Assembly: GCA_004297165.1 (NCBI GenBank)
Contig: SCUJ01000006.1
Coordinates: forward strand, 558,001-622,000
Direction of reading: 5' to 3'
Source: Gammaproteobacteria bacterium
GTDB lineage: Bacteria; Pseudomonadota; Gammaproteobacteria; Eutrophobiales; Eutrophobiaceae
DNA: 64,000 nucleotides
The translations under genes were made by a program, and so were the position numbers. The notes beneath the pieces were generated by a model that was not told the DNA's origin, did no database searches, and saw only the letters and a program-made list of their open reading frames with translations. Of this stretch, positions 1,814 to 18,454 are shown piece after piece. Within the stretch, counting starts at the first letter, position 1, and each line of letters starts with the position of its first letter.

Positions 1814-2266
1814 TTATTGATAACCTTTCAACAGGTCGGCGGCCATGGCGGGCGCCAGCTTGCCGAGGTGCTGTTCATCGATCTCCATCACCGGACCCAG
1901 GGCGCAGCAACCGAGGCAGTTGACCGTCTCCAGACTGAATTTGAGATCGGCGTCGGTCTCGCCCGGCTGAATGCCGGTGATGTTCTGCACCACCTCCAGG
2001 ACGCGGTTCGCGCCGCGCACGTGGCAGGCGGTGCCGACGCAGACGTTGATCTCGTGCCGTCCCTTCGGCACCAGACTGAAGGCCTTGTAGAAGGTGGCGG
2101 TGTGCTGGATCCGGCTCATCGGCACGCCGAGACGCTCGCTGACGAGTTCCAGGGCCTCGCGCGGCAGCCAGTGGAGATCGTTCTGGATGTCGAGCAGGAT
2201 CTGTATCAGGGCGCTCGCCTCGCCATTGTACTTGTCGATGATTGCGCTGATATTCGTGGTGTCCAT
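1814..2266 (-). CDS. NuoE-like thioredoxin-fold [2Fe-2S] protein (BamG-like)
   Basis: The 150-residue protein has the NuoE fold: an N-terminal helical part (PREALELVSERLGVP, HTATFYKAF) and four cluster cysteines in CVGTAC and CLGCC. Its length matches the family. NuoE partners NuoF as an electron-relay subunit. Here it sits directly upstream of the NuoF-like gene and downstream of an MvhD-like gene, with no other complex I genes in the window, so it is probably part of a soluble Hdr-linked NADH module. Confidence 0.92.
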   Translation of the reverse strand: MDTTNISAIIDKYNGEASALIQILLDIQNDLHWLPREALELVSERLGVPMSRIQHTATFYKAFSLVPKGRHEINVCVGTACHVRGANRVLEVVQNITGIQPGETDADLKFSLETVNCLGCCALGPVMEIDEQHLGKLAPAMAADLLKGYQ

Positions 2267-2306: not shown

Positions 2307-3074
2307 TCAGACCAGCGCGTAGCGTTTTTCCGCCTGATCGAAGCGAATCAAGCGCTGTCTGGAGGACTCCGTCAGGAATTTCGCGACGTTCGAGGAATTG
2401 ATCCCCAGTTGCGCGGCGATCTCGCCTGTCGTTAGCATGCGGTCCTTGAGCAGCAAAAGGATCTGGCTGATGGTGAGTTTGTCGGCGATCTGGTCCTTGA
2501 ACAGACGCGTCGCCTCCGGGCCATCGAAATATTCCGCGTATTGTTCCTTGTTCTCGAAGCGCACCCGCAGCTTTTCGCGCTCCACGAGCTTCACGAAGGG
2601 CAGGACCTTGCGGATCGCCTCCAGTTTCAGCGCCAGTGTCTCGTCGCTCATCCCCTCACCCGCGCCGAGCGGGCCGATTTCCTTGAGTTCGTTGGTGAAC
2701 TCCGTCATCACCTCCGCGAAACGGTTGCCCTGCGAGGCGGAGATCCACTCCAGGCGCAGACGGTCAGGGTTCAGGCCCGCCTCCTGCAGGAGTTTCTTGC
2801 CGAGGTGCATCATGCTGAGGGCGTCGTAATTGCCTTCCGTCACATAGTGGCACTCGCCCAGCCAGCAGCCGCCTACAAACACCCCGTCCATACCCCGGGT
2901 AAAGGCCCGGAGGACGAATTCTAGATCCACGCGCCCGGAACACATCACCCGGATGATGCGCACGCTGGGGGGATACTGATAGCGGGACACGCCGCAGAGG
3001 TCCGCGCCCGCATACGAGCACCAGTTGCACAGGAAGCCCATGATGCGCGGTTTGAAGTCATGTGCGGGTCGCAT
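2307..3074 (-). CDS. MvhD/FrhD-like [2Fe-2S] protein with C-terminal winged-helix-like region (BamF-like)
   Basis: The first 140 residues are an MvhD domain: CNWCSYAGADLCG (Cys16, 19, 27), MCSGR (Cys45) and GGCWLGEC (Cys70, Cys75). MvhD proteins pass electrons between hydrogenase or Nuo-type modules and HdrA. The BamF protein of Geobacter is known for a selenocysteine. Every expected position here is a plain cysteine codon and no in-frame TGA is seen. Residues about 210-255 look like a DNA-binding winged helix (TTGEIAAQLGINSSNVAKFL), an extension of unknown purpose. The gene is 255 aa long and lies between the HdrA-like and NuoE-like genes. Confidence 0.87.
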   Translation of the reverse strand: MRPAHDFKPRIMGFLCNWCSYAGADLCGVSRYQYPPSVRIIRVMCSGRVDLEFVLRAFTRGMDGVFVGGCWLGECHYVTEGNYDALSMMHLGKKLLQEAGLNPDRLRLEWISASQGNRFAEVMTEFTNELKEIGPLGAGEGMSDETLALKLEAIRKVLPFVKLVEREKLRVRFENKEQYAEYFDGPEATRLFKDQIADKLTISQILLLLKDRMLTTGEIAAQLGINSSNVAKFLTESSRQRLIRFDQAEKRYALV

Positions 3075-3136: not shown

Positions 3137-6100
3137 TTAAGCGGCGTCGATCTGGCTGAAGATCAATTCATCGGTAAAATGTTTCAGGTATATGGCGCCG
3201 GTCGGGCACTTGGTATTGCACAACCCGTCGCCCTTGCAGAGGATCGGGTTCACCTGGGCCTTCTTCCCTTTCGGGGTTTCCTGGAAAGAGATGGCGTCGT
3301 AGCTGCATGCGGAGATGCACGCCCCGCAGGTGACGCAGTTGTTGATGTTCACGTCGCAGATCGCCCCTGAGGCCGCCACGGTGTCGCTCGAAAGCACGCA
3401 GATCGCGCGACCGGCCGCGCCGTAAGCCTGGCTGATGGTCTCCGTGAGGTGTTTCGGGTAATGGGCAGTCCCGCACAGGAATACGCCATCGGCGGCGAAA
3501 TCGACCGGGCGAAGTTTTACGTGTGCCTCCTGAAAGAATCCGTCCGGACTCAACGGCACCTTGAACTGCCGCGCAAGGGTCTGGTTGCCCGGCGGCGGGA
3601 TCACCGCGGCCGCCAGTGCAACCACGTCGGCATCCAGGGCGAGGCGTTGGCCGAGGATGGGATCGTAGACGTCCACCCGCAGCAGTTTTTCGCCGTTCTC
3701 CTCGACCGCCGAGACGCGCGGTTTGTCTTCCGGTTCGTAACGGATGAAACGCACGTCGTTATCCGCGGCCTCCCGGTAATAATCCTCCTTGTAACCGTAG
3801 GTGCGCATGTCGCGGAAGATGATGTAGACATCCCGGGCCGGATTTTCTTTCTTGAGTTTCAAGGCGTTCTTGATGGATTGTGTGCAACAGACGCGGCTGC
3901 AATAGTTTCGCTCCGCGTTCCGGCAGCCCACGCACTGGATCATGACCACGCCACGGGCGTTTTTCACGCGCGCGTCCTGTTGCTGGATCGAGTTCTCCAG
4001 TTCGAGCGAGGTCATGACCCGCTCATCCTGGCCGTAGAGATATTCCTCGGGCCGGTATTCCACGGCGCCGGTGGCGATGATTACGGCCCCATGGCGTATC
4101 TGCATCTGGCGGCCTTCCACGTTCAACCGGCTCGTGAAATTTCCGATGTAACCCGTGACCTCCAACAACTCCGCATCCGTGTACACATGGATTGAGGGAT
4201 GACGGAAGACCTTGTTCTTCAGATCGTTCAGAAATGCCTGTACATCGATCCCTTCCAGGGTGCGTTGCAGACGCCTAGCCATGCCGCCGAGGTCGGAATC
4301 CTTCTCGATGAGATAGACCTCGAAACCCTGCTCCGCCATGTTGTAGGCGCTGGTCATGCCGGCGACGCCGCCGCCGATGATCAGGGTTGCCTTGTTGACG
4401 GGGAGATCGAATTCCGAGAGCGGTTGCAGGTGCGAGCTGCGCGCCACGGACATCCGCACGATGTCCTTGGCCTTCTGCGTGGCGTCCTCTTTCTCGCGGG
4501 AATGCACCCAGGAGCAGTGCTCGCGGATGTTCGCCATATCGAAATAATACTGGTTCAATCCGCCTTCCCGGACGGTATCCCGGAAGAGCGGTTCGTGGGT
4601 GCGCGGGGTGCAGGCCGCGATCACCACACGATTGAGGCCGCGTTCGCGGATGACATCCGAGATCTGTTGCGCATTGTCAGTGGAACAGGCGAACAGGCTT
4701 TCCTGCGCATGCGCGACATTCTTCAGCCCCTTGGCGTATTCGACCACCGCGGGCACGTTCACCACCCGGCCGATGTTCGCGCCGCAATGACAGACGAAGA
4801 CGCCGACCTTCGGATCTTCCTTCGTGACATCCCGTTCCTTGGGGTATTCCCTTTCCCTGGCCAGCTTGCCGCGCTGTTGCGCCAGGATCTGTCCGCAAAG
4901 CGCGCCCGCGCCGCTCGCGGAAACCACGGCCTCCGGGATATCCATGGGGCCATGAAAGGTGCCGCTGACGAAGATCCCTTCCCGGCTGGTCTCGATGGGA
5001 TTGAGGGGATTGGTCTTGCAAAAACCGTGTTTGTTGAGATCAACGCCAAAAAGGTTCGCCAGCTCTTTTGCGTCATCCGGCGGGTTCATGCCGACGGACA
5101 ACACCACCATGTCGAACTCCTCCTCCTTAACCCCTTCGCCATCGGTGGCATAGCGAATCGTGACGTTGTTGGTGCCGGGGAGCTCCCGCCCGATGGTCAC
5201 GTAACTGCGGATGAAGCGCACATCGGAGAGGCCGGATGCACGTTGGTAGTAACGCTCGAAGTCCTTGCTGAAGGCGCGGATGTCGTTGTGAAATACGGTC
5301 GCGTCGAGTTCGGGCGCGTGATCCTTGGCGAGGATGATCTGTTTCTGCGTGTAGGCGCAGCAGACCGAAGAGCAGTAGGAGTTGCCGCCGGGAATGACCT
5401 GGCGCGAGCCGACGCACTGGATCCAGGCGATCCGGTGCGGGTGCTTGCCGTCGGACGGCCGCCGAATCTCGCCCTCGTACGGGCCGGTTGAAGACAGGAT
5501 CCGCTCGAAGTCCATGCTGGTCATCACATTCTTGATCTTGCCGTAACCGTAATCATTGCGTTTGGCGGGATCGAAGATTTGGTAACCGGGCGACAGGACG
5601 ATTGATCCCACCTCAATCTCCACAGATTCCGGCTTCTGATGCAGATCGATGGCGTTGTGCTTGCAGACGCCCACACAGATATTGCACTTGTCGTCTTGCA
5701 GATATAGACAGGTCTTCGGATCGATGTAGGTGATCAGCGGGACCGCCTGGGAGAAATGAATATGCACCGCCTTGGTGAGCGAGAGATTCTGGTTATAGGC
5801 ATCCGGAACCTGGGCCGGACAATATTCGACGCAGGCGGTGCAACCGGTGCATTTGTCTTCCAGAACATACCGCGGTCTCCGGTACAGTTGCACCTTGAAG
5901 TTCCCCACCTTCCCTTCCACACGCCGCACATCGGTATTGGTGAGGATGTCGATGTTGGGATGCCGGCTGCACTCGATGAACTTTGGCGATTCGATGCACA
6001 TGGAGCAATCGTTCGACGGGAAGGTCTTGTCGAGCTGGGACATCCGCCCCCCAATCGCGGGCGATTTGTCCACCAGATAGACACGGAATCCGGTATTGGC

Positions 6101-6220
6101 GAGATCCAGCGCGGCCTGGATGCCGCTGATGCCGCCGCCGACGACCAGCACATCGCCCAGGTTGCTTTCCGCAGGGCGCTTCAGGTTTAATCCTTCAATA
6201 GGCATGATATTCAATGTCAT
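3137..6220 (-). CDS. Large HdrA-like FAD/iron-sulfur protein with two flavin domains (BamE-like)
   Basis: The 1027-aa protein is roughly two HdrA units long. In order it has a GGGISG dinucleotide motif near residue 28, DCSMCIESPKFIEC near 71, ferredoxin cysteines CTGCTACVEYCP near 124 and CNICVGVC near 180, and CVGSRQ with CSSVCC near 270-290. A second GGGVAG FAD motif near 595 is followed by CVGCRNAERNYCSRVCC and a C-terminal 2x[4Fe-4S] ferredoxin (CVTCGACISAC, CKGDGLCNTKC). HdrA subunits carry the bifurcating flavin in heterodisulfide-reductase complexes; BamE is the long version in class II benzoyl-CoA reductase. The start at 6220 lacks a clear ribosome site and 6205 is an alternative. Confidence 0.9.
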   Translation of the reverse strand: MTLNIMPIEGLNLKRPAESNLGDVLVVGGGISGIQAALDLANTGFRVYLVDKSPAIGGRMSQLDKTFPSNDCSMCIESPKFIECSRHPNIDILTNTDVRRVEGKVGNFKVQLYRRPRYVLEDKCTGCTACVEYCPAQVPDAYNQNLSLTKAVHIHFSQAVPLITYIDPKTCLYLQDDKCNICVGVCKHNAIDLHQKPESVEIEVGSIVLSPGYQIFDPAKRNDYGYGKIKNVMTSMDFERILSSTGPYEGEIRRPSDGKHPHRIAWIQCVGSRQVIPGGNSYCSSVCCAYTQKQIILAKDHAPELDATVFHNDIRAFSKDFERYYQRASGLSDVRFIRSYVTIGRELPGTNNVTIRYATDGEGVKEEEFDMVVLSVGMNPPDDAKELANLFGVDLNKHGFCKTNPLNPIETSREGIFVSGTFHGPMDIPEAVVSASGAGALCGQILAQQRGKLAREREYPKERDVTKEDPKVGVFVCHCGANIGRVVNVPAVVEYAKGLKNVAHAQESLFACSTDNAQQISDVIRERGLNRVVIAACTPRTHEPLFRDTVREGGLNQYYFDMANIREHCSWVHSREKEDATQKAKDIVRMSVARSSHLQPLSEFDLPVNKATLIIGGGVAGMTSAYNMAEQGFEVYLIEKDSDLGGMARRLQRTLEGIDVQAFLNDLKNKVFRHPSIHVYTDAELLEVTGYIGNFTSRLNVEGRQMQIRHGAVIIATGAVEYRPEEYLYGQDERVMTSLELENSIQQQDARVKNARGVVMIQCVGCRNAERNYCSRVCCTQSIKNALKLKKENPARDVYIIFRDMRTYGYKEDYYREAADNDVRFIRYEPEDKPRVSAVEENGEKLLRVDVYDPILGQRLALDADVVALAAAVIPPPGNQTLARQFKVPLSPDGFFQEAHVKLRPVDFAADGVFLCGTAHYPKHLTETISQAYGAAGRAICVLSSDTVAASGAICDVNINNCVTCGACISACSYDAISFQETPKGKKAQVNPILCKGDGLCNTKCPTGAIYLKHFTDELIFSQIDAA

Positions 6221-6246: not shown

Positions 6247-7392
6247 CTAGATAACTTCCTGGATGATCTCGGTGACATCCTTGATCTCGATGCTCCTGCC
6301 GTTGCCGAGGCTGAGCGCGCTGTCCGTGAAATTGGTGATGCAATAGGGACAGGAGGTCGCCAGCACCTCGGCATCGACATCCAGCGCCTGTTTGAGCCGG
6401 ATGTTGGAAAAGCGCTCCTCCTTGGGGGTCTCCATCCAGATCCGTCCGCCGCCGCCGCCGCAACAGAGGCTGTTTTCCCGGTAATCCTCCATTTCGTTCA
6501 GGGTAAGGCCGTTCACCTGGCCGAGGACCTCGCGCGGCTGGTCGAAGATCTTGTTGTGCCGCCCCAGATAACAAGGATCGTGATAGGTAATCCGCTTGGC
6601 ATAGCTGCCCTTCAATTCCAGCCGGCCGCTGCCGATCAGTTCATGCATGAACTGGGTGATATGGATCACCTCGAAATGCATGCCGAATTCGGGATATTCG
6701 TTGGCGAAGGTGTGAAAGCAGTGCGGCGACGAGACGAGGATCCGCTTCACGCCATGATCGATGAAGGTCTTGATGTTCTCGCGGGCGAGATGCTTGAAGG
6801 TCGCTTCATCCCCGGTCTTGCGGATGCTCTCGCCGCAACAGACCTCCTTGGGCCCGAGGATGCCAAATCCAACGCCGGCCTTTTGCAGGATCTTGGCGGT
6901 GGCGACAGCCACCTTCTTCATGCGGGGGTCGTAGCTGAGATAGCAACCGGGGTAATACAGGATTTCCATGCCTTCGGCGAAGGTATTGACCGAGAGTCCT
7001 TCCGCCCAGGCCGCGCGCTTGCCGCGTTCGCCGCCGAGGGAGTTGCCTTCGGACATGAGATGGCCGCTGATGGTGGTGATCGAATCCGGCACAACCCCGT
7101 ATTCGGTGGCGATGCGTCGGAGCGAGACGCCTGCCTTGATCTGATCCACGCCACGCGGACAACGGCTCGGACAGGTGCCGCAGGTGGTGCAACGCCAGAT
7201 CTCCTCCTCGTCGATCGCGGTAAGCCCGAACACGGCCTGGCGCGCGAGCTTGCGCATGCTGAAACTGCTCACCTTGTTCCAGGGACAGACGGCGTCGCAG
7301 ATCCCGCATTGGTAACAATATTTGAACGACTGACCGCCTTGCAACTTGATGATGTCGACGATCTCTTTATACGGGGCTACGGTCTCCGTCAT
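6247..7392 (-). CDS. HdrD/HdrB-like iron-sulfur protein with two CCG domains (BamD-like)
   Basis: The 381-aa protein has an N-terminal ferredoxin pair (CYQCGICDAVCP near residue 26, CTTCGTCPSRCP near 68). Two CCG (DUF224) domains follow. The first has PGCYLSYDP, VCCGES and SPHC. The second has HDPCYLGRH, LCCGGGGGR and TSCPYC. CCG domains bind unusual [4Fe-4S] clusters that handle thiol or disulfide chemistry in HdrB/HdrD, and act as electron relays in related complexes. Neighbouring genes on both sides are in the same operon with spacings of 26-28 bases. No heterodisulfide is expected in this type of organism, so a relay role in an AOR complex is more likely. Confidence 0.9.
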   Translation of the reverse strand: MTETVAPYKEIVDIIKLQGGQSFKYCYQCGICDAVCPWNKVSSFSMRKLARQAVFGLTAIDEEEIWRCTTCGTCPSRCPRGVDQIKAGVSLRRIATEYGVVPDSITTISGHLMSEGNSLGGERGKRAAWAEGLSVNTFAEGMEILYYPGCYLSYDPRMKKVAVATAKILQKAGVGFGILGPKEVCCGESIRKTGDEATFKHLARENIKTFIDHGVKRILVSSPHCFHTFANEYPEFGMHFEVIHITQFMHELIGSGRLELKGSYAKRITYHDPCYLGRHNKIFDQPREVLGQVNGLTLNEMEDYRENSLCCGGGGGRIWMETPKEERFSNIRLKQALDVDAEVLATSCPYCITNFTDSALSLGNGRSIEIKDVTEIIQEVI

Positions 7393-7420: not shown

Positions 7421-7978
7421 TTAATGACCTTTGGTCATCTTCGAAAGAGCCTCAATCAGGGCATCCTGACCGAATTTGTTCACGAGGGACTCCAGCCCAC
7501 CCTCCAGTTCGGCGCGCTTTTCCTGCGGACGCGGTTCGCGCGTCTCCTCCCGTTCTATATAAGTAAGCGCCCCCGGCAGGCAGGCCTGCACGCACCAGGG
7601 CTTTTCCAGCGGCGGGATGCTTTCGCACATATCGCATTTCAACGGCAGGCCGGAATCCGGTTCGCGGAAATAATCCCGTGAGGGACAGGAGGCGCCGCAG
7701 AAGCTGCACTCGCTGTATTCCTTCCCGCCGATCTTGTAGATGTGCCGGCCGTTGCACTCCGACGGGGTGTAATCGCCGGCCCGGATCGGCACATATTCAT
7801 CGTTGATCTCGTCGACCACCACGCGGATCCGCGCCCGGGCTGGATTGATGCTGCTGAATCTCGGTCTGGCGTGAAAGGCCGAGCAGGCCATCTCACAGGC
7901 GCGGCAACCGGTGCATTTATCGATCTCGACCTTGATCTCCTTGACGATCTTTTTGGCGACTACGGTACTTGCGGTCAT
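7421..7978 (-). CDS. Polyferredoxin-like electron-transfer subunit of AOR (BamC-like)
   Basis: The start at 7978 is chosen because an AGGGAGG ribosome site lies about 7 bases upstream and only 13 bases separate it from the AOR stop. The 185-aa product has cysteine groups typical of four-cluster ferredoxins of the DmsB/AOR-partner type: CTGCRACEMAC near residue 22, CSFCGASCPS near 91, CDMCES near 114 and CVQACLPGAL near 128. It probably receives electrons for, or from, the AOR-family subunit encoded immediately upstream. Confidence 0.9.
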   Translation of the reverse strand: MTASTVVAKKIVKEIKVEIDKCTGCRACEMACSAFHARPRFSSINPARARIRVVVDEINDEYVPIRAGDYTPSECNGRHIYKIGGKEYSECSFCGASCPSRDYFREPDSGLPLKCDMCESIPPLEKPWCVQACLPGALTYIEREETREPRPQEKRAELEGGLESLVNKFGQDALIEALSKMTKGH

Positions 7979-7991
7979 ATTCCAATCCTCC

Positions 7992-9950
7992 CTAGGCCGT
8001 CGCCGCTTCGGCGACCGGTTGCGCGGGGGCAAATTCATCTTCGGTTTTCAGGATGCCCAACTCTTCCAGTTCATCGGCGACGTACTCGAGATCCAGCCGT
8101 TCCAGCGTTTTGCGCGTGGGAATGCCCTGCTTGTTCCAGCCCTTGTATTGGTAATAGGTATCGAGCAGTTTCTGTTCGAACTCCTCGTTGCGGACCGCCC
8201 AGTGGTCTTCGGGCGGACGTTCGTGCATGCGCCGCAGGCCTCGTTTGACGTTCACGACTCTTACCATGGTGCGGATCCGCTGGAAGCACTTCCACAGCTT
8301 TTCCTTGCTCATATCGAGGCCAGTGGCCAGGGAGATTATCTGCGGGATGTTGTTCATGTGGTAGGCGACGCCGCCGCCGAACTGCCCACGGAAGGACGAG
8401 ACGAAACCGCAGAGGCCGATGGAGTCGTCGATATAGTGCATCGCCTCGTTCCAGTCGACGATGTCGCAGGTTGCCTGATCGGAGATCTCGTTGCGCTTTT
8501 CCCAGTTGAGGAAATACTGTTTGAATTTCTCGTCCGGCACAGCCTCCCATTTATTGACGAAGGCCTCGCGTTGTTCCCTGGTCGGCAAGGGATCCTGCGG
8601 GAAGGAACCCTCGATCTGGGTGATGCTCATCTTCTCGCCGGTTGCGATCATGAGGAAATAGGCGGGATTCAATTTGCCCAGTTTGATCGGCAGTTGTTCG
8701 AACTTCTTGGTCGTGTTGTGATCGTAGGCCTCGGCCCCGTTGCCGATGCGGATCGCGGCCTGGGAGACCCCGTCGGCCAGGATGTCGCCGATCCCTTCCC
8801 GGCGCACGATCTTTTCCAGCAGGTAGAAGAAACGCCCCCGGTTGTCGGCCGGCATGTCCGGGAAATCCGTGTCCTTGAGGATCCCGGCCTCGAGCAATTC
8901 CAGCGCGAAGGCCATGACCTGCGGGGTGGAATAGGAATCAACGCCATACTCCTGCGCCAGGCCGAGGATCTCGAAACTGAAATCGAGTTCGAGAAACGCC
9001 GCCATGTGATAGGTGTCCTTGCCAAAGCATTTGTAGGCGAATCTGGGCTTGCCGGGCCAGTTGATCACATTCCGGCATTTCTTGGAACAATTGAAACAGC
9101 CGGTCTGGCGATCCATGTGATCGTATTTCAGATGGGTCCAGCGCTCCTGGAGCTCGGCGCTCCAGAAATCCTTTCTGCGGGTCCGGGCGTTGCCCCAGGC
9201 GAAATGGTTATGGTGGAAGCTGTCGTCCTCATCGACCGCCATCCAGTCGCCGCAGCCGTCGCTCTCGCCGATCTTGCGGCGCATCTGGTGGGTCATTTCG
9301 AAGAGTTCCGCCGGACGCGCGACATGGATATCCTTGGTGCCGCGCACCGCTATGGCCTTCAGTCGCTTGTCTCCCATGATGACGCCCACGCCACGCGCCG
9401 CACTGGCATGATTGTGATCGATGGAGGCCATAAAGACGCGATTTTCCCCCGCCAGCCCGATGGCGGCCACTTGGACCTTGTAATCGCCGAGTTCCTGCTT
9501 CAGTAAATCTCCGGTCTCGGTCGTGCCCTTGCCACGGAGATGTGTGGCGTCACGAATCTCCACCTTGTCATTATTTATATAGAGATAAACAAGGTCCGGG
9601 GCCTTACCGCGAATAATGATCTTGTCGTAACCGGCATATTTAAGTTCGGGACCGAAGAACCCCCCGAAGAGGGAATGGGACATCAGATTGGTTTGCGGAG
9701 AGATCGTGTTGACCACGGTGCGGTTGGCGGCCGGGACAGGCGTGCCGTGGAGGAGCCCCGTGCTGAAGATCAGGAGGTTATCGGGTGAAAACGGGTCGGT
9801 ACCGGATTTGACGCGATCCCAGAGGATCTTCGCGGCGGACCCCTGCCCTCCAAGATACAGCTCGGCGGTATCCGGGTCGGTAGCCACCTTCTCGATGCTG
9901 CCTCGGGTAAGATTGATCTCCAGGTTAAAACCTGTCTCACTGTATCTCAT
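7992..9950 (-). CDS. Tungsten-type aldehyde ferredoxin oxidoreductase family protein, BamB-like
   Basis: The 652-aa protein has the AOR fold from its first residues (MRYSETGFNLEINL; GGQG near 34; GLAGEN near 165). Its [4Fe-4S] ligands are CFNCSKKC (Cys285, 288, 292) and Cys514 in IGLCGF. Motifs resemble BamB, the active-site subunit of class II benzoyl-CoA reductase, more than acid or aldehyde AORs: a histidine group FHHNHFAWGNAR at 245-256 and YKCFGKDTYHMAAF, where Cys308 is a candidate metal ligand. It is the first gene of the operon, with a GAGGAA site before the ATG. What is seen is the family and the BamB-like motifs. Benzoyl-CoA or another acyl-CoA as substrate is inferred, and carboxylate reduction remains possible. 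Confidence 0.85.
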   Translation of the reverse strand: MRYSETGFNLEINLTRGSIEKVATDPDTAELYLGGQGSAAKILWDRVKSGTDPFSPDNLLIFSTGLLHGTPVPAANRTVVNTISPQTNLMSHSLFGGFFGPELKYAGYDKIIIRGKAPDLVYLYINNDKVEIRDATHLRGKGTTETGDLLKQELGDYKVQVAAIGLAGENRVFMASIDHNHASAARGVGVIMGDKRLKAIAVRGTKDIHVARPAELFEMTHQMRRKIGESDGCGDWMAVDEDDSFHHNHFAWGNARTRRKDFWSAELQERWTHLKYDHMDRQTGCFNCSKKCRNVINWPGKPRFAYKCFGKDTYHMAAFLELDFSFEILGLAQEYGVDSYSTPQVMAFALELLEAGILKDTDFPDMPADNRGRFFYLLEKIVRREGIGDILADGVSQAAIRIGNGAEAYDHNTTKKFEQLPIKLGKLNPAYFLMIATGEKMSITQIEGSFPQDPLPTREQREAFVNKWEAVPDEKFKQYFLNWEKRNEISDQATCDIVDWNEAMHYIDDSIGLCGFVSSFRGQFGGGVAYHMNNIPQIISLATGLDMSKEKLWKCFQRIRTMVRVVNVKRGLRRMHERPPEDHWAVRNEEFEQKLLDTYYQYKGWNKQGIPTRKTLERLDLEYVADELEELGILKTEDEFAPAQPVAEAATA

Positions 9951-10029
9951 TGCTGTTCCTCATTCCGGGGCCACAAAACCTGATATTCATGAACAAGAAG
10001 GCATTCGCCTCCTGCTGGAGAATCATGTT

Positions 10030-10049
10030 TTGTAATCAGATAGTTACAA
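10030..10049. promoter_or_regulatory. Inverted repeat TTGTAA-N8-TTACAA, putative operator
   Basis: Perfect 6-base arms lie about 80 bases upstream of the AOR start codon. Position and symmetry suit a repressor or activator operator for the minus-strand operon. The binding protein is not identifiable in the window. Confidence 0.45.
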
Positions 10050-10060
10050 TCAACTCTAAA

Positions 10061-10080
10061 TTGAAACCGGGCAGTTTCAA
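10061..10080. promoter_or_regulatory. Inverted repeat TTGAAAC-N6-GTTTCAA, putative operator
   Basis: Perfect 7-base arms with a 6-base spacer begin 11 bases beyond the neighbouring inverted repeat, about 110 bases upstream of the AOR start codon. Two different palindromes one helical turn or so apart suggest overlapping regulators of the leftward operon. Confidence 0.5.
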
Positions 10081-10153
10081 GGAAAAATCTCTGCATAACT
10101 GCAATGCATGCCACGTGCGACGGGGATCTAACCTTGAGGCCAAAAAACCAGCA

Positions 10154-10167
10154 TTGATTTTGATCAA
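10154..10167. promoter_or_regulatory. FNR/ANR/DNR-type box, perfect match to TTGAT-N4-ATCAA
   Basis: The sequence TTGATtttgATCAA matches the FNR consensus at all ten fixed positions. Its centre is about 210 bases from the AOR start codon and 190 from the ligase start codon. A class II FNR promoter reading left would place a -10 at about 10126-10131, where the minus strand reads TTAGAT; this alignment is suggestive only. FNR-family control would mean expression under low oxygen. Confidence 0.65.
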
Positions 10168-10297
10168 CTTCACGATTGTTTTACAAACATTCAGCAGGAA
10201 AATTATGGGAGGTCAAGCAAATATCCATGAAATACCTCAGACAAATCCATCGCCTTGCGGCATTCGATCCTGATCTATGGTTGAATGAAATATATGC

Positions 10298-10320
10298 AAT
10301 GAACTACAACCGAGTTCATT
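10298..10320. promoter_or_regulatory. Inverted repeat AATGAACT-N7-AGTTCATT, putative operator of the ligase promoter
   Basis: Perfect 8-base arms with a 7-base spacer lie 30 bases before the ligase ATG and directly after a TATAT sequence that could be a -10 box. A site here would cover the transcription start, as expected for a TetR-type repressor released by an acyl-CoA. No such regulator gene is in the window. Confidence 0.55.
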
Positions 10321-10350
10321 CCTGACTGGCCGACCATGTATGGGGGGATC

Positions 10351-11994
10351 ATGAATCACCCGGATTATGAAATGCTAAGGCAACATCATGCCGCTTTGCC
10401 CATAGAGGCCAATATGATGAATACGCCTCTACGAGTCACGGATCTCATGGCCCGTGCTGAGGAGCTTTTCCCGCAACGCGAAATTCTTACTCGCAATGGG
10501 ACAGGATCGATCGAGCGTAGCGACTATGCAAGGGTCGGTGAACTGTCCCGGCGTCTGGCCGCCGGTCTCGTTGCCGTAGGGACTAGGCCTGGCGAGCGAA
10601 TAGCGACGCTCATGTGGAATCATGCCACGCACCTCGCCAGTTATTTCGCGGCGCCTGCCATAGACGCCGTATTGCACCCGTTGAATCCGCGGTTATCTCC
10701 GGAGGAAGTGGCCTATATCGTCGCCGACGCGGGGGATCGTGTTGTTCTGGTGGACGAGGCACTCCTGCCCTTCTGGCGCGAGGTCGAACGTTATGTCAGC
10801 GCGCCACTCGTTTTTGTGCATGGGACGACACAGGGGTACGGCAGGCTGGAAGATTTATTAATGCATGCGCCGCTCGCACAATGGCCGAGGCGCCCTGTTG
10901 ACGAACATGGACCTGTTTCGATTTGTTATACCTCCGGCACCACGGGACGCTCCAAGGGGGTCGTCTACTCGCACCGCTCCATCATCCTGCATGGCCTTGG
11001 CGTGTCGCTGCCGGATATCCTCGGTTTGTCGAGTAACGACACCATCTTCACTTTAACTCCCATGTTTCATGTCAACGGCTGGGGCATGCCCTACACCATC
11101 ACGATGCTGGGCGCGCGCCATATCCTCCCTGGTCCGCATATCACCCCTGAAGAAATACTCGACATGATGCAAAACGAACAGGTTAACGTGGCCTTTGGCG
11201 TCCCGACGATCTGGACGGCGGTACTCAATCAACTCGACGCGCATCCGGGCCGTTGGCGTCTGCATCCGGGTTTGCGGCTTTACTCGGGCGGGGCTGCGCC
11301 GCCGGCCGAGATGTTTCGTCGTTTTGATCAACTGGGCATTCGCCTGCAGGCTGGTTGGGGCATGACCGAAACTTCTCCGGTCGCGACTCAAGCCTGGCTC
11401 ACCCGGGAATTACGTGCTGAGGACGAATCCTCTCAGATGAAGGCGCGTACTACTGGTGGTCTGCCCCTGCCCCTGATCGATATGCGCATCGTCGATGATG
11501 CAGGCAAAGTACTGCCCTGGGATGACCAGGCCAAGGGGGAATTACAGGTGCGCGGACCGTGGATAGCGGAGTCTTATATCGGCCATCCTGAACCTGTTTC
11601 AGCGTGTACCGAAGACGGCTGGCTGAAAACCGGCGACATCGCCTGCATCCGGCCGGATGGGTACCTGCGCCTGGTTGATCGGCTGAAAGACCTGGTCAAA
11701 TCGGGTGGTGAATGGATCAGTTCCATCGACATGGAGAACGCCCTGATGTCACATCCCGATGTCTACGAGGCGGCGGTGATCGCCATTCCGGATGCCCATT
11801 GGGGAGAGCGCCCGTTAGCTATAGTAAAACTTAAGCCGGAACGGCAAACAGAACCCGACTCGATACGTAATTTCCTTCTGGGACGTTTCCCCCATTGGAT
11901 GGCGCCGGACAGGATCGAGGTTGTCGCCGAGTTGCCGAAGACATCCGTGGGCAAGCTGAATAAACGGCTACTGCGGGAATATTATGTAAAGTGA
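10351..11994 (+). CDS. AMP-forming acyl-CoA synthetase (AlkK/FadD type)
   Basis: This ANL-superfamily enzyme (547 aa) activates a carboxylic acid to its CoA thioester through an acyl-adenylate. It shows the P-loop YTSGTTGRSKGVVYSHR near residue 198, GWGMTETSP near 341, the TGD motif near 426 and a C-terminal lysine in SVGKLNKRLLR. Overall it resembles medium-chain AlkK-like ligases more than dedicated benzoate-CoA ligases, but substrate cannot be read from sequence. The ATG at 10351 follows a GGGGGG run; an in-frame ATG at 10336 has no ribosome site. It diverges from the AOR operon across a shared control region, so it may supply that operon's acyl-CoA substrate. Confidence 0.88.
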   Translation: MNHPDYEMLRQHHAALPIEANMMNTPLRVTDLMARAEELFPQREILTRNGTGSIERSDYARVGELSRRLAAGLVAVGTRPGERIATLMWNHATHLASYFAAPAIDAVLHPLNPRLSPEEVAYIVADAGDRVVLVDEALLPFWREVERYVSAPLVFVHGTTQGYGRLEDLLMHAPLAQWPRRPVDEHGPVSICYTSGTTGRSKGVVYSHRSIILHGLGVSLPDILGLSSNDTIFTLTPMFHVNGWGMPYTITMLGARHILPGPHITPEEILDMMQNEQVNVAFGVPTIWTAVLNQLDAHPGRWRLHPGLRLYSGGAAPPAEMFRRFDQLGIRLQAGWGMTETSPVATQAWLTRELRAEDESSQMKARTTGGLPLPLIDMRIVDDAGKVLPWDDQAKGELQVRGPWIAESYIGHPEPVSACTEDGWLKTGDIACIRPDGYLRLVDRLKDLVKSGGEWISSIDMENALMSHPDVYEAAVIAIPDAHWGERPLAIVKLKPERQTEPDSIRNFLLGRFPHWMAPDRIEVVAELPKTSVGKLNKRLLREYYVK

Positions 11995-12007: not shown

Positions 12008-13645
12008 TCAAGGCTGACTGTGAATCCGGTTTCGGCCGCCGGCCTTGGCCTGGTAGCAAGCGTCGTCGGCCCGTCTGATGATTTCTGTGATGTTGTCATC
12101 GTCATGCGAAATCGCCACCAGGCCGATACTGGCGCCGATATCGAACACCAGTCCTTGCCACATAAAGCGAAAACCCCGCACGACATCCAGTATGGCGTTC
12201 GCCACGCGTTTGGCCTGCTCGATGGAACAATTTTCCAGCAATACGGCGAACTCGTCCCCGCCGAGGCGCGCCAAGGTGTCGCGTTTGCGGATCGGCTCCT
12301 GTAATAGTTGTCCAAGGCGGCGCAGCAGTTCGTCGCCGGCAATGTGTCCACAGGTATCGTTGATGAGCTTGAACTTGTCGAGGTCTATGAAGCACAGGGC
12401 GTTGTCGGTTTGTTGCTGTTTCGCCGTCTTGATCACCCGTTGCAACCGTTTCTCGAACTCGCGCCGGTTGACGAGGCCGGTCAGGGCATCGTAAGACGCC
12501 TGGTAAGACAATTGCGATGACAGTTCATGGGCCTCGGTGATATCGAGCAGGGCGCAGCAGATAACCTTTTCGCCGCTCAGTTCCATGGATCTGGCGTTGA
12601 GCGATACCCACTGCGGCCGCTTTCCTCCCTCGCCGTCGATTAACTGAAATTCATGTCCATAGACTTCCGGACCGGCAGCCACCACGCGAGTGTAATTCTC
12701 CCGCGCCTCTTTGCGATCAAACAGGGAGGTCACCGGATGATCCTTGATCGCGTCGGACTTTTTCTGGAACAAGGTTTCCGCCATGGCATTGGCGTACAAG
12801 ACCTTCCCGTCGGACAGGCGATGAATCAATAGCGCGACCGGCGAGGTATCCGCGATCAGACGGAATCTGGTCTCGCTGTCCCGCAAGGCCTGTTCCGCCT
12901 TGAGGCGCTCGGTGATATCGCGGGAAAAGGTGCAGGAGGCGGCTTGCCCTTCATAGACAAAGTTGTTGACGCTGATCTCGACGGGATAGAAGCTGCCGTC
13001 CTTTTTCTTATGCTCGCGGATTATCGATTCCAGATCGCCCGCATGGGCGCCATCCCAGACCGATTTATAGATCTCCGGGGTGCATCCGGGATCCAGGTCA
13101 TATACGGTCAACGAGGTCAATTCACCGTAAGTGTACCCAGTATTCTTGCAAGCACGTTTGTTGGCGTAATTAATCCGCGCATCCTCGTCACTCATGTAGA
13201 CGGATTCCACCGCGTTATCGATGATGAAACGCATGATCTCCATCTGCTGCTGGGATTTTTTACGTTCGGTGATATCCCGGGCGAAAGAGAACGAATAAAA
13301 CTCGTCCTCGAAAGCGGTAAGTCTGATTGAAACCTCCACGGGGAATATAGTCCCATCCTTCCTCCGATGCCTGCTTTCGAAGGTTGCCTCTCTTTCCTGA
13401 TGCACCTTTCCCGCGATATTGGCGACATTGTCGGAAATAGTCTTAAGGTCAGGATCGATGTCAGACGTGTTCATGGCGATCAGTTCCTCGTAACTGTAGC
13501 CGAGAACGCGACAGGCGCTTTTGTTGACATAGATGACGCTGCCGTCGCCCGTACACAGGTAAAAGGCATCGACGGCGTTTTCCACCGCGAACTGTAATTG
13601 TTTCATCAGCCGCGAGGCGACGTTATTATCGGTTTTTTCGGACAT
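12008..13645 (-). CDS. Triple-PAS diguanylate cyclase
   Basis: The 545-aa cytoplasmic sensor has three PAS/PAC units (about residues 15-130, 140-260 and 270-385), each ending in a FSRDITER-like or LLDITEA PAC signature. A C-terminal GGDEF domain follows. The active-site motif RLGGDEFAVLLEN is intact and an RKRD inhibitory I-site precedes it by five residues, so it should make cyclic di-GMP and be product-inhibited. No EAL domain or transmembrane segment is seen. The start at 13645 is preferred to one 63 bases upstream because PAS1 begins shortly after it. It converges on the acyl-CoA ligase with 13 bases between the stops. Confidence 0.9.
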   Translation of the reverse strand: MSEKTDNNVASRLMKQLQFAVENAVDAFYLCTGDGSVIYVNKSACRVLGYSYEELIAMNTSDIDPDLKTISDNVANIAGKVHQEREATFESRHRRKDGTIFPVEVSIRLTAFEDEFYSFSFARDITERKKSQQQMEIMRFIIDNAVESVYMSDEDARINYANKRACKNTGYTYGELTSLTVYDLDPGCTPEIYKSVWDGAHAGDLESIIREHKKKDGSFYPVEISVNNFVYEGQAASCTFSRDITERLKAEQALRDSETRFRLIADTSPVALLIHRLSDGKVLYANAMAETLFQKKSDAIKDHPVTSLFDRKEARENYTRVVAAGPEVYGHEFQLIDGEGGKRPQWVSLNARSMELSGEKVICCALLDITEAHELSSQLSYQASYDALTGLVNRREFEKRLQRVIKTAKQQQTDNALCFIDLDKFKLINDTCGHIAGDELLRRLGQLLQEPIRKRDTLARLGGDEFAVLLENCSIEQAKRVANAILDVVRGFRFMWQGLVFDIGASIGLVAISHDDDNITEIIRRADDACYQAKAGGRNRIHSQP

Positions 13646-13834
13646 GTTCAAGGATACTTCTCTCCCCCACTCCCAAGGCATGATGCCACTTGAGATTTCA
13701 CAAATCACCCCTCTTTTTCCAAATGTAGCAAATGTTTACAAACTCCTGGTTGCCGTGTTCTAAGAGGATGGATAGTATCCTCGGGTTTAACGGGGCATGT
13801 CTGATTTACACCAAGCAATCAGGGGGGATATCCA

Positions 13835-14290: not shown

Positions 14291-16450
14291 ATGATGACGA
14301 TTTATTCCGGCGATGCCATCCAGTTGTTGCCGCTCGACGAAGGCTTCATTGAGCTGAATCTCGACGCCACGCGCGCTTCAGTCAATATCTTCAACGCGGC
14401 TGCGGTGGCGGAGCTCAACGCCGCGCTTGACATCCTGGAAACCAAAAAAGATGTCAGGGGACTTCTCATAACCAGCGCCAAGAATTCATTCGTCGCCGGG
14501 GCGGATATCGACGAATTCCTCCCCCTGTTCAGGTCCGGTAAGACGGCCATTCAGACAGAGATCGCCAAGAACAACCGCAACTACAATCGCCTCGAAGACC
14601 TGCGCATGCCCGTGGTCGCGGCGATCAACGGCGCGGCGCTCGGCGGCGGTTTCGAATTGTGCCTGGCGTGCGATTACCGCATCGCGAACACAGCCGGGCA
14701 GATCGGATTCCCGGAATGTTCCCTCGGCATCCTTCCCGGTTGGGGCGGAACCGTCCGCTTCCCGCGCCTGGCTGGAATCGATACCGCTATCGAATGGATC
14801 GCCCTCGCGCAGATTTTCGATCCCGCCACGGGCTTGAAGGCCGGAGTTCTTGACGCGGTAGTCGCACCCGAGAAGCTGCGGGAGGCCGCCTTGCACACCT
14901 TGCGTCAATGCAGCGCCGGTAAACTGGATTACAAGGAACGCCGCCGCCGTAAACAAGCGCCACTGCGGCACAATGCTATTGAACTCACCCTGGCCGTCGA
15001 GTCCGCGAGGGGTATGGCGCTTGCCAAGATCGGTCCGAATTATCCGGCGCCGCTGGCGGCGATTGATGCAATGCAGAAAGCCGCGGGGCTCGATCGCAAC
15101 GCGGCGCTCCGGGTGGAAGCGGAGGCATTTGCCGAACTGGCGGGTTCCGATCCGGCCCGAGCCCTCGTCGGGATTTTCCTTAATGATCAGGCCGTGGCCA
15201 AGAAGGCCAAAGACTGGATCAAACAGGCGGATAAAATAAACGAGCGCGCGGCCGTGATTGGCGCAGGCATCATGGGCGGCGGGATCGCCTTGCAGTCCGC
15301 CATGCAGGGCGTGCCCATAATCATGAAGGATATTGCCCAGGCCGGCCTGGATCTGGGGTTTACCGAGATCAACAAGCACCTGGCCAAACGCGTCGAACGC
15401 GGCGGAATGACCCCGGCAAAGATGGGACAGGCGCTCATCAGCATCACGCCAGCCTTGAGTTTTAATGGGTTCAAAGGCGTCGATATCGTGGTCGAGGCCG
15501 TGGTGGAAAATCCGAAGGTTAAGCAGACCGTTTTGGCCGAGGTCGAACGCGAGCTTGCGGAACACGCCATTCTAACGTCCAACACCTCGACGATATCCAT
15601 CTCCTTTCTCTCTCAGTCGCTCAAACGGCCGGAAAATTTTTGCGGGATGCATTTCTTCAACCCGGTGCACGCCATGCCGCTGGTCGAGGTCATTCGCGGC
15701 AAGCGGACCTCGGATCGCGCGATCGCCCGCACCGTCGCCTTCGCTCATGCCCTCGGCAAGAAACCGGTGGTCGTGAATGATTGTCCCGGATTCCTGGTGA
15801 ATAGGGTGTTGAATCCCTATTTCTTCGCCTTCCTTATGTTGGTGCGGGACGGCGCGGATTTTCAACAGGTGGATCGGGTCATGGAGCATTGGGGCTGGCC
15901 CATGGGACCGGCGTACCTGATCGACGTAATCGGCATCGATACCATCGTACATAGCGAACCGGTGATGGCGCGGGGCTATCCGGATCGCATGACCCTGTTC
16001 GAGAATGCCGCCACGGATGTACTCTGTCGGGCGGGCCGTCTCGGCCAGAAGAACGGCCAGGGTTTCTACGATTACCAGCCGGATCAACGGGGCCGGCCGC
16101 GTAAACAACCCTCGGTCGCGACCGCGGAGTTATTGGAACGCCATGTCGCGCGCCGCCAGGAATTCAGTAAAGAGGAGATCATCGCCCGCATGCTGATCCC
16201 CATGGCCACCGAGATGGCGCGTTGTCTGGAGGAGGGCATTGTGGCGAGCGCCGCGGAGGCCGACGCGGCCCTGATTCATGGCCTGGGTTTTCCGCGCTTT
16301 CGTGGCGGCATCTGCCGCTGGATGGATACCGTGGGGCTCAAGGCCGTATGCGAAACGGCCGATCGGTATGTCTCTCTCGGCGGTCTCTACCGGATACCCG
16401 AAGGATTGCGACGTCTGGCCGCGGACGGCGTGAGCCACTATGCGATCTAA
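14291..16450 (+). CDS. FadB/FadJ-type enoyl-CoA hydratase / 3-hydroxyacyl-CoA dehydrogenase
   Basis: The 719-aa protein has the usual order: N-terminal crotonase domain (oxyanion region FVAGADIDEF near 68; both catalytic glutamates in GGGFEL and GFPECSLG), then an NAD-binding dehydrogenase domain (VIGAGIMGGGIA near 323), the catalytic histidine in MHFFNPVHAMPLVEV and two C-terminal HADH helical domains. It would hydrate an enoyl-CoA and oxidise the 3-hydroxyacyl-CoA. The thiolase gene follows 15 bases downstream, as in fadBA-type operons. Whether it works on fatty acids or on ring-cleavage products of an aromatic or alicyclic acid is open. Confidence 0.92.
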   Translation: MMTIYSGDAIQLLPLDEGFIELNLDATRASVNIFNAAAVAELNAALDILETKKDVRGLLITSAKNSFVAGADIDEFLPLFRSGKTAIQTEIAKNNRNYNRLEDLRMPVVAAINGAALGGGFELCLACDYRIANTAGQIGFPECSLGILPGWGGTVRFPRLAGIDTAIEWIALAQIFDPATGLKAGVLDAVVAPEKLREAALHTLRQCSAGKLDYKERRRRKQAPLRHNAIELTLAVESARGMALAKIGPNYPAPLAAIDAMQKAAGLDRNAALRVEAEAFAELAGSDPARALVGIFLNDQAVAKKAKDWIKQADKINERAAVIGAGIMGGGIALQSAMQGVPIIMKDIAQAGLDLGFTEINKHLAKRVERGGMTPAKMGQALISITPALSFNGFKGVDIVVEAVVENPKVKQTVLAEVERELAEHAILTSNTSTISISFLSQSLKRPENFCGMHFFNPVHAMPLVEVIRGKRTSDRAIARTVAFAHALGKKPVVVNDCPGFLVNRVLNPYFFAFLMLVRDGADFQQVDRVMEHWGWPMGPAYLIDVIGIDTIVHSEPVMARGYPDRMTLFENAATDVLCRAGRLGQKNGQGFYDYQPDQRGRPRKQPSVATAELLERHVARRQEFSKEEIIARMLIPMATEMARCLEEGIVASAAEADAALIHGLGFPRFRGGICRWMDTVGLKAVCETADRYVSLGGLYRIPEGLRRLAADGVSHYAI

Positions 16451-16465
16451 GGGGGGATTCAGCCG

Positions 16466-17644
16466 ATGAACCTGCCTCCCAGAACCGCGGTCGTCATCGA
16501 CTACGCGCGCTCGGCGATGGGCCGATCGAAGAACGGTTGTTTCCGGCAGGTGCGGGCCGACACGCTTTCCGCCGGATTGGTGCAGGGTCTGCTCGCGCGC
16601 AATCCTGCCATCGCCCCGGAGGCCATCGATGACATCCTCTGGGGTTGCGTCCTGCAACAGGCGGAACAAGGCGGCAACATCGCCCGCACCATCGGCCTGC
16701 TCGCGGGACTGCCCCACTCGGTCCCGGCGCAGACCGTGAGCCGGCTGTGCGGTTCCTCCATGACCGCCCTGCATACGGCGGTCGCAAATATCGGCACCAA
16801 TCTCGGCGACATCTACCTCGTCGGGGGTGTGGAACATCTTGGCCACATTCCCATGTCGGCGGCGGTCGATCCCAACCCGCTGCTGGGACTTTCCGTGGCC
16901 GGGGCCGCGGCCAACATGGGCTTGACCTCGGAATACCTGGCGCGCATCCACGGCATCAATCGCGAACAGATGGATGCCCATGGCGCCCGCTCGCATCGGC
17001 TGGCAGCCAAGGCCCGGGCGGAAGGCCGCTTCAGGTGCGAGATTATTCCCCTGCCCGGCCACGACGCGGATGGTTTCCCCATCCTGGTAGAACACGACGA
17101 GACCATCCGCTCCGAAACCACCATCGAGTCGCTCGCGGATCTGAAGCCGGTATTCGATCCCGTGCATGGTAGAATTACGGCCGGGACCTCCTCGCAGTTT
17201 TCGGATGGTGCCTCCGTGATGTTGATCATGTCGGCGGAACGCGCTCGGGATCTGGACCTGCATCCGCTGGCCCGCGTCGTCTCTCTGGGACTCGCAGGGG
17301 TGGACCCTTCGATCATGGGCTATGGTCCGGTTCCCGCCACGGAAAAGGCCTTGAAACGAGCCGGTTTGAAGATAGACGATATCGAGGCCATGGAACTGAA
17401 CGAGGCCTTTTCCGCCCAGGTGCTCGCGGTGCTCAAGGGCATGGGCATGCTCGAGGCCTTGGAGGGAAAGGTGAATCTCAACGGCGGGGCCATCGCCCTC
17501 GGGCATCCGTTCGGCTGTTCCGGTGTGCGCATCACCGGCGCACTGCTCACGGTCATGCGGGAACGGGACCTGACCCTCGGCGCCGCCACCATGTGTGTCG
17601 GTTTCGGTCAGGGGATTACGACAATTTTGGAAAGACTGCGATAG
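16466..17644 (+). CDS. Acetyl-CoA C-acyltransferase (thiolase, FadA type)
   Basis: The 392-aa protein carries all thiolase active-site signatures: the nucleophile in SRLCGSSMTALH near residue 92, NEAFSAQ near 342, GHPFGCSG near 359 and the second cysteine in MCVGFGQG near 378. It would cleave 3-ketoacyl-CoA with CoA to acetyl-CoA and a shortened acyl-CoA. A GGGGG sequence precedes the ATG. It forms a functional pair with the bifunctional enzyme encoded just upstream. Confidence 0.93.
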   Translation: MNLPPRTAVVIDYARSAMGRSKNGCFRQVRADTLSAGLVQGLLARNPAIAPEAIDDILWGCVLQQAEQGGNIARTIGLLAGLPHSVPAQTVSRLCGSSMTALHTAVANIGTNLGDIYLVGGVEHLGHIPMSAAVDPNPLLGLSVAGAAANMGLTSEYLARIHGINREQMDAHGARSHRLAAKARAEGRFRCEIIPLPGHDADGFPILVEHDETIRSETTIESLADLKPVFDPVHGRITAGTSSQFSDGASVMLIMSAERARDLDLHPLARVVSLGLAGVDPSIMGYGPVPATEKALKRAGLKIDDIEAMELNEAFSAQVLAVLKGMGMLEALEGKVNLNGGAIALGHPFGCSGVRITGALLTVMRERDLTLGAATMCVGFGQGITTILERLR

Positions 17645-17650
17645 ACCTAC

Positions 17651-18454
17651 ATGACGCTGCATTACGAAAAGAAAGACAAGATTGCCTGGCTGACGATCGA
17701 TCGGCCCGCCTCCCACAACTCCCTGGATCCGGACACGATCATCGCCATGTTGGAGGCGTGGGAGGATTACCGCGATGACCCGGACTGCCTCTGCGCGATC
17801 GTCACCGGCGTCGGTTACAAGGCCTTCTGCTCGGGCATGGATCTCGACGCGGTCATCCCGATCATGACCGGTTCCCGATCGCCTTCTAACGCGGCGGAAC
17901 AGAAGCTGGCTGAGCGGCCGGAGATCATCGATCAGGCCACACTCAGAAACTTCGAACTCTACAAACCCGTAATCGCCGCGGTGAACGGTTTCGCCATCGC
18001 CGCCGGCATGGAGATCGTCCAGGCGACGGATATCCGCATCGCCTCGGGGAATGCGAAGTTCGGGCTGCAGGAAGCGAAATGGGGGCTGTTCCCGCTGGGG
18101 GGCTCGACCGTGCGACTCCCCCGCCAGATCCCGTACAGCATGGCCATGGAGCTCATGCTGACCGGGGAACTCATCGATTCACGAGAGGCCGAGCGGATCG
18201 GTTTCATCAATCGCGTCGTGCGCCAGGAAAACCTGCTGGACGAGGCCGAACGGATTGCGCGCAGCATCGTCCGCAACGGCCCCCTCGCCGTGCGCCGGAT
18301 CAAGGAATCGGTGCTGCGTTGTTCGGGGCTGTCCATCGAGGCCGGTCTCGCGCAGGAGCAGATCCTCGGCCGCGAGGTCTTCAACAGCAAGGATGCGAAG
18401 GAAGGACCGCGCGCCTTTATGGAGAAACGCGAACCCCGCTTCACCGGGAAATGA
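17651..18454 (+). CDS. Enoyl-CoA hydratase/isomerase family protein
   Basis: This 267-residue single-domain crotonase has the oxyanion-hole segment AFCSGMDLDAV near residue 59. Both glutamates expected of a hydratase are kept: GMEIVQATD near 118 and LQEAKWGLFPLGG near 138. It starts six bases after the thiolase stop and ends two bases before the SDR start, so the three are surely one transcript. A second hydratase beside a FadB-type enzyme suggests a branched, cyclic or aromatic substrate needing its own hydration step. No BamA-like ring hydrolase signature was recognised. Confidence 0.9.
   Translation: MTLHYEKKDKIAWLTIDRPASHNSLDPDTIIAMLEAWEDYRDDPDCLCAIVTGVGYKAFCSGMDLDAVIPIMTGSRSPSNAAEQKLAERPEIIDQATLRNFELYKPVIAAVNGFAIAAGMEIVQATDIRIASGNAKFGLQEAKWGLFPLGGSTVRLPRQIPYSMAMELMLTGELIDSREAERIGFINRVVRQENLLDEAERIARSIVRNGPLAVRRIKESVLRCSGLSIEAGLAQEQILGREVFNSKDAKEGPRAFMEKREPRFTGK

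Follow-up and report, generated by a model that had tools for sequence, protein, structure and literature searches.

The bam operon and the FNR box upstream of it

The window, that is the whole 64,000-nucleotide stretch analysed here, corresponds to positions 558001-622000 of contig 13 (C13) of a 3.53-Mb genome. Its left end is occupied by a series of minus-strand genes. The first of them encodes a protein of the AOR/WOR family, which matched Geobacter BamB (4Z3W) over 635 residues (E 4.6e-236), the matches to aldehyde oxidoreductases being far worse. Cys308 of this protein aligns with Cys322 of 4Z3W, a BamB cysteine described as a tungsten ligand (PMC12096430). The genes downstream were assigned from their domain content and order, and the last one, bamI, was recovered by direct search just outside the window. 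Judged by its sequence, bamBCDEFGHI makes up a full class II benzoyl-CoA reductase operon. Its substrate would be benzoyl-CoA, which class II enzymes reduce without ATP, or possibly a related aryl-CoA. The features of the locus are as follows:

C13:557301-557867, just outside the window after bamH: bamI, 75% identical to its homolog in locus L022
1..1804, minus strand: bamH-like, NuoF-type subunit, truncated at the window edge (full length 646 aa)
1814..2266, minus strand: bamG-like, NuoE-type subunit
2307..3074, minus strand: bamF-like, MvhD/VhuD-type subunit
3137..6220, minus strand: bamE-like, HdrA-type flavin/Fe-S subunit
6247..7392, minus strand: bamD-like, HdrB/C-type subunit
7421..8038, minus strand: bamC-like Fe-S subunit, the true start probably internal to the ORF
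7992..9950, minus strand: bamB-like, catalytic subunit of class II benzoyl-CoA reductase
10092..10108, no strand assigned: three TGCA repeats, a possible BzdR/BoxR operator at about +12 to +28; two of them are 1 nt apart (TGCATTGCA, minus strand, 10108-10100)
10118..10119, minus strand: transcription start predicted for a box centre at -41.5, deduced from the -10 prediction
10126..10131, minus strand: predicted -10 element TTAGAT of modest score, 22 nt from the box towards bamB; TTATAT at the same position in G002, a genome of the same genus
10154..10167, no strand assigned: perfect FNR box TTGATTTTGATCAA, palindromic (TTGATCAAAATCAA on the minus strand)
10336..11994, plus strand: divergent acyl-CoA ligase; on its side of the box there is no class II -10 element

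A gene for a PAS-GGDEF protein (12008-13708, minus strand) separates the ligase from a beta-oxidation-like gene set (14291-18454).

The box TTGATTTTGATCAA agrees with the FNR consensus at all ten positions, as the preliminary description of this DNA had stated: it consists of two TTGAT half-sites 4 nt apart, and it is the sole perfect FNR box within the 64-kb window. It is located in the 385-bp spacer separating bamB (ATG at 9950, minus strand) from the ligase ORF (10336, plus strand). From the composition of the spacer itself, 0.0007 perfect boxes would be expected there. The same description had placed the box midway between the AOR operon and the acyl-CoA ligase. This is correct geometrically, the box centre being 175 bp from the ligase ORF start, but the position is not neutral, since the box reads towards the bam operon (see below).

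Perfect FNR boxes in the genome and in its relatives

The genome was scanned for the same box, a check proposed in the preliminary description. Pattern search of the 3.53 Mb returned 14 perfect palindromes, compared to 3.7 or so estimated from a first-order Markov model. Five control palindromes of equal base composition gave 0, 0, 0, 1 and 2 genomic matches (reversed patterns 0, 0 and 1; permuted palindromes 0 and 2). The permuted palindromes were added because the reversed pattern contains CTA/TAG words and is therefore a weak control. Eight of the 14 boxes are intergenic (P ~2e-5 to 3e-4 at 10-15% non-coding DNA, a share estimated with a crude gene caller), and the six located within genes are probably there by chance. 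The pattern was present in all 53 genomes of the family (53/53), usually being far commoner than the reversed control.

Several of the intergenic boxes precede classic anaerobic genes. One is found before a cytochrome c gene followed by narGHJ (narG over the TIGR01580 cut-off), one before frdA (over the TIGR01176 cut-off), one before a COX2/COX1-type terminal oxidase and one before a molybdopterin oxidoreductase. Another precedes had-oah-dch, an operon of the benzoyl-CoA pathway with each of its three genes over its equivalog cut-off. The others lie before a ribonucleotide reductase gene, before a large ORF which, in our reading, resembles NAD-glutamate dehydrogenase and, for the eighth, before bamB (10154-10167). 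The narG box and the dch/ribonucleotide-reductase box are also retained in G002.

The surroundings of the had-oah-dch operon yielded further observations. A perfect box lies between dch and the ribonucleotide reductase gene (L102:9954-9967, and L122), a position that the two genomes of the genus share. Downstream of the MarR gene adjoining had-oah-dch is encoded a further AOR-family protein with a C-terminal ThiS-like domain (L102:13886-16207). The gene beside the box at C13:1371954 was considered as a benzoyl-CoA reductase subunit and rejected, as Pfam assigns it to ribonucleotide reductase.

Two proteins encoded by the genome match the Crp helix-turn-helix family, one being CRP and the other FNR. 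The latter (L001) scores 279.7 bits against NF008365 (NCBIfam cut-off 228). Its Cys17, 20, 26 and 119 align with the cysteines of Aliivibrio FNR, so that all four cysteines of the [4Fe-4S] cluster are present, and its recognition helix reads ETVSR (ETISR in the Aliivibrio protein). The preliminary description had made its reading depend on an FNR-family gene in the genome, and a true FNR gene is thus present.

The upstream regions of bamB were compared among loci that encode close relatives of BamB, taken from public genomes as well as from within the genus. G002 (L018/L113) has a perfect box ahead of its bamB, and so do two Sterolibacterium MAGs (L021 and L036). The ligase is replaced in G002 by an HlyD-like gene divergent from bamB, and in L021 and L036 the gene upstream of bamB has the same direction and is presumably moeA-like, as read by eye. 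In an alignment of the window with these three loci, the box half-sites form the sole long invariant block: the box stays in place although its flanks have diverged. The four loci are related and therefore not fully independent. The 1.17 Mb of sequence fetched from relatives contained few perfect boxes, 7 in all, of which two are those before bamB. In addition, 91 bp ahead of a second bamB-like gene of G002 (L117, G002:C50), there is another perfect box.

About 75 other bamB loci showed no box directly before bamB, and no perfect box was found near bamB in the fetched Geobacter loci. In many of the beta relatives, bamI precedes bamB, which is therefore not the promoter-proximal gene there. bamB is apparently the first gene in five Sterolibacterium-type loci. 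One of them, L024, where bamB stands behind a different gene, had no box and is a true exception.

Taken with its sequence, this comparative evidence argues for a functional box, and FNR very probably does use the site at 10154-10167. The link to low-oxygen sensing proposed in the preliminary description is supported by the FNR gene, by the boxes at anaerobic genes and by the retention of the box before bamB in relatives. The facultative life style that it had deduced for the host is likely in view of narG, the COX1-type oxidase, frdA and FNR, the box by itself being no proof of it.

Predicted promoter architecture and competing readings

Class II FNR promoters of E. coli carry the palindrome TTGATN4ATCAA about 22 nt upstream of the -10 element. 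Using a hand-written -10 matrix, we scored hexamers located 21-23 nt from the box on the bamB side. Against a background median of -2.1 bits, the scores were 1.9 bits in the window (TTAGAT), 3.3 in G002 (TATATC), 4.0 in L021 (TACCAT) and 4.2 in L036 (TAGTAT), the value for TTAGAT in the window being one that 8-10% of random positions also reach. The preliminary description would have given up its reading if transcription started where the site cannot act; the -10 predicted for the window agrees with a start on which the box could act. Within the bamB set, the highest-scoring -10, TATAAA, is that of the second bamB of G002. For the had-oah-dch box, a good -10 is missing at the 21-23-nt spacing, and the spacing rule is therefore not valid for every box.

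We consider it highly probable that the box is the operator of an FNR-dependent promoter of the class II activator type, driving bamBCDEFGHI. Binding of FNR, activation, the transcription start and the response to oxygen are all deduced here for the bam promoter, and the mechanism would be the following. Under anoxia, FNR would keep its [4Fe-4S] cluster and dimerise. The dimer would bind the palindrome centred near -41.5 and recruit sigma-70 RNA polymerase to the weak -10 element at 10126-10131. The bam transcript would begin near 10118, leaving a leader of about 170 nt before bamB. In the presence of oxygen, the cluster would be lost and bam transcription would drop. As a consequence, the tungsten ring-reductase complex is proposed to be made only in anoxia.

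The predicted leader contains an inverted repeat, TTGAAAC-TGCCCG-GTTTCAA (10061..10080, minus strand). Its arms are retained in G002 with a shorter loop, and it is over the region ~10030-10100 that the two spacers align best locally. Rfam returned no RNA family within 9000-11500.

The palindrome as such is directionless and the ligase ORF starts only 175 bp away, so the box might serve the divergent ligase, or both operons equally, from a class I activator position on the ligase side. This is unlikely: 20-24 nt from the box on that side, the best -10 reaches only -2.0 bits, which is approximately the background median, and no sigma-70 promoter-like pair was found downstream of the box on the plus strand. 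Furthermore, the box is kept in G002, where the HlyD-like gene stands instead of the ligase, as well as in L021 and L036, and no close ligase homolog adjoins bamB in the fetched loci. With no fitting -10 on the ligase side, and with the box persisting where the ligase is absent, a shared role for the ligase is not supported, and by these criteria the box is assigned to the bam operon and not to the divergent ligase. The presence of six intragenic boxes, probably fortuitous, and the Markov prediction of ~4 boxes per genome could be taken to mean that the bam box is itself a chance palindrome; it might also be bound by another Crp/FNR protein such as CRP. Both are very improbable, given the minute number of boxes expected in the spacer and the occurrence of the box at the same place in four loci despite their diverged flanks. 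As for CRP, it recognises TGTGA half-sites, a motif different from that of FNR, and FNR is present in the genome.

The proposed FNR-dependent promoter could be extended, rather than contradicted, by a second input. BoxR and BzdR bind TGCA repeats spaced by 1, 6 or 15 nt (PMC6449761). The stretch 10092-10108 is the only site of the 64 kb with three TGCA within 22 bp, the 1-nt spacing included. The genome holds one gene for a 298-aa regulator combining HTH and shikimate-kinase-like parts, which scores above the threshold of NF006015 ('anaerobic benzoate catabolism transcriptional regulator'). This bzdR/boxR-like gene (L128:1105-2001, C13 ~1027785) itself is preceded, close to its start, by TGCA-N6-TGCA and may therefore be autoregulated; the same arrangement is found at the predicted start of the second bamB of G002. 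Repeats and regulator together weakly suggest an input from benzoyl-CoA. As in the Azoarcus PN promoter, FNR would activate from -41.5 while a BzdR/BoxR-type repressor sitting on the TGCA repeats would block transcription until benzoyl-CoA appears. We regard this two-input model as possible but tentative: the motif is short and was noticed post hoc, the regulator gene is not adjacent to bam, and the first bamB of G002 has two TGCA with non-canonical spacing. As L021 and L036 do not share the repeats at their bamB promoters, the second input is kept as a hypothesis.

Two reductase classes in one genome and comparison with known systems

The genome also encodes the class I subunits BcrC, B, A and D, each of which exceeds its equivalog cut-off. 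The bcrCBAD set is complete (L126:9423-14073, C13 ~1073423-1078073) and adjoins 2-oxoacid:ferredoxin oxidoreductase-like genes. In the spacer of class I bcr, no candidate FNR box had fewer than 3 mismatches. The genome gave no PFL-like glycyl-radical enzyme, and therefore no benzylsuccinate synthase. Elsewhere on contig 13, an ORF for a Cas9-like protein of 1162 aa is followed by two ORFs which resemble Cas1 and Cas2 by eye (L129:14865-19581, C13 ~1032865-1037581).

Reviews assign benzoyl-CoA reductases of class I to facultative anaerobes and those of class II to strict ones (PMC5400083, PMC12096430). An FNR-controlled class II operon in a genome which also carries class I genes would mean that this division leaks, at least at the sequence level, and calls for caution in using bamB alone as a strict-anaerobe marker in environmental surveys. 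The type of promoter predicted here is known, its target is unexpected: FNR control of class I has already been described (Azoarcus bzd PN), while a class II target in a nitrate-reducing, oxidase-bearing genome with BcrABCD is unusual. Searches of open-licence papers brought to light no instance of a class II reductase under the control of FNR. In its fullest form, the interpretation would be that this nitrate-reducing, oxidase-bearing host with both classes has wired class II to a promoter responding to FNR (anoxia) and to a BzdR-type regulator (benzoyl-CoA), like class I elsewhere, its own bcrCBAD promoter being without a recognisable FNR box. We hold this to be rather doubtful as a whole. 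If true, the two reductase classes would serve different oxygen or energy regimes. The predicted promoter provides in addition a regulatory hypothesis for how an oxygen-exposed host might protect a very oxygen-sensitive enzyme.

The operon itself resembles bamBCDEFGHI of Geobacter metallireducens (4Z3W being its BamBC), with the same subunits and a conserved tungsten-ligand cysteine. Geobacter is described as a strict anaerobe, and the BamB of the fetched Geobacter loci is about 60% identical to that of the host. The arrangement predicted for box and -10 element likewise follows the class II FNR promoters of E. coli, although the target genes differ.

The benzoyl-CoA reductase of Rhodopseudomonas palustris belongs to class I. 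In this organism, AadR, a member of the FNR family, controls anaerobic benzoate genes together with the MarR protein BadR (cited in PMC5852087). Here likewise, FNR-family control of anaerobic benzoate degradation is predicted, and a MarR gene lies beside had-oah-dch; enzyme class and organism differ.

The nearest parallel to the predicted architecture is the bzd PN promoter of Azoarcus/Aromatoleum, where AcpR, of the FNR type, occupies a site at -41.5 and drives the class I benzoyl-CoA reductase genes (PMC6678401). Both systems would place an FNR/CRP-type activator site at -41.5 before benzoyl-CoA reductase genes, and both have TGCA repeats around or after the start, here a predicted one, and a BzdR-type gene in the genome. 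In Azoarcus bzdR is adjacent, whereas here the regulator gene lies elsewhere and OR2/OR3-like repeats were not identified. The main difference concerns the target: PN, with its AcpR and BzdR inputs, serves the ATP-dependent class I enzyme, while the promoter proposed here would serve the class II tungsten complex.
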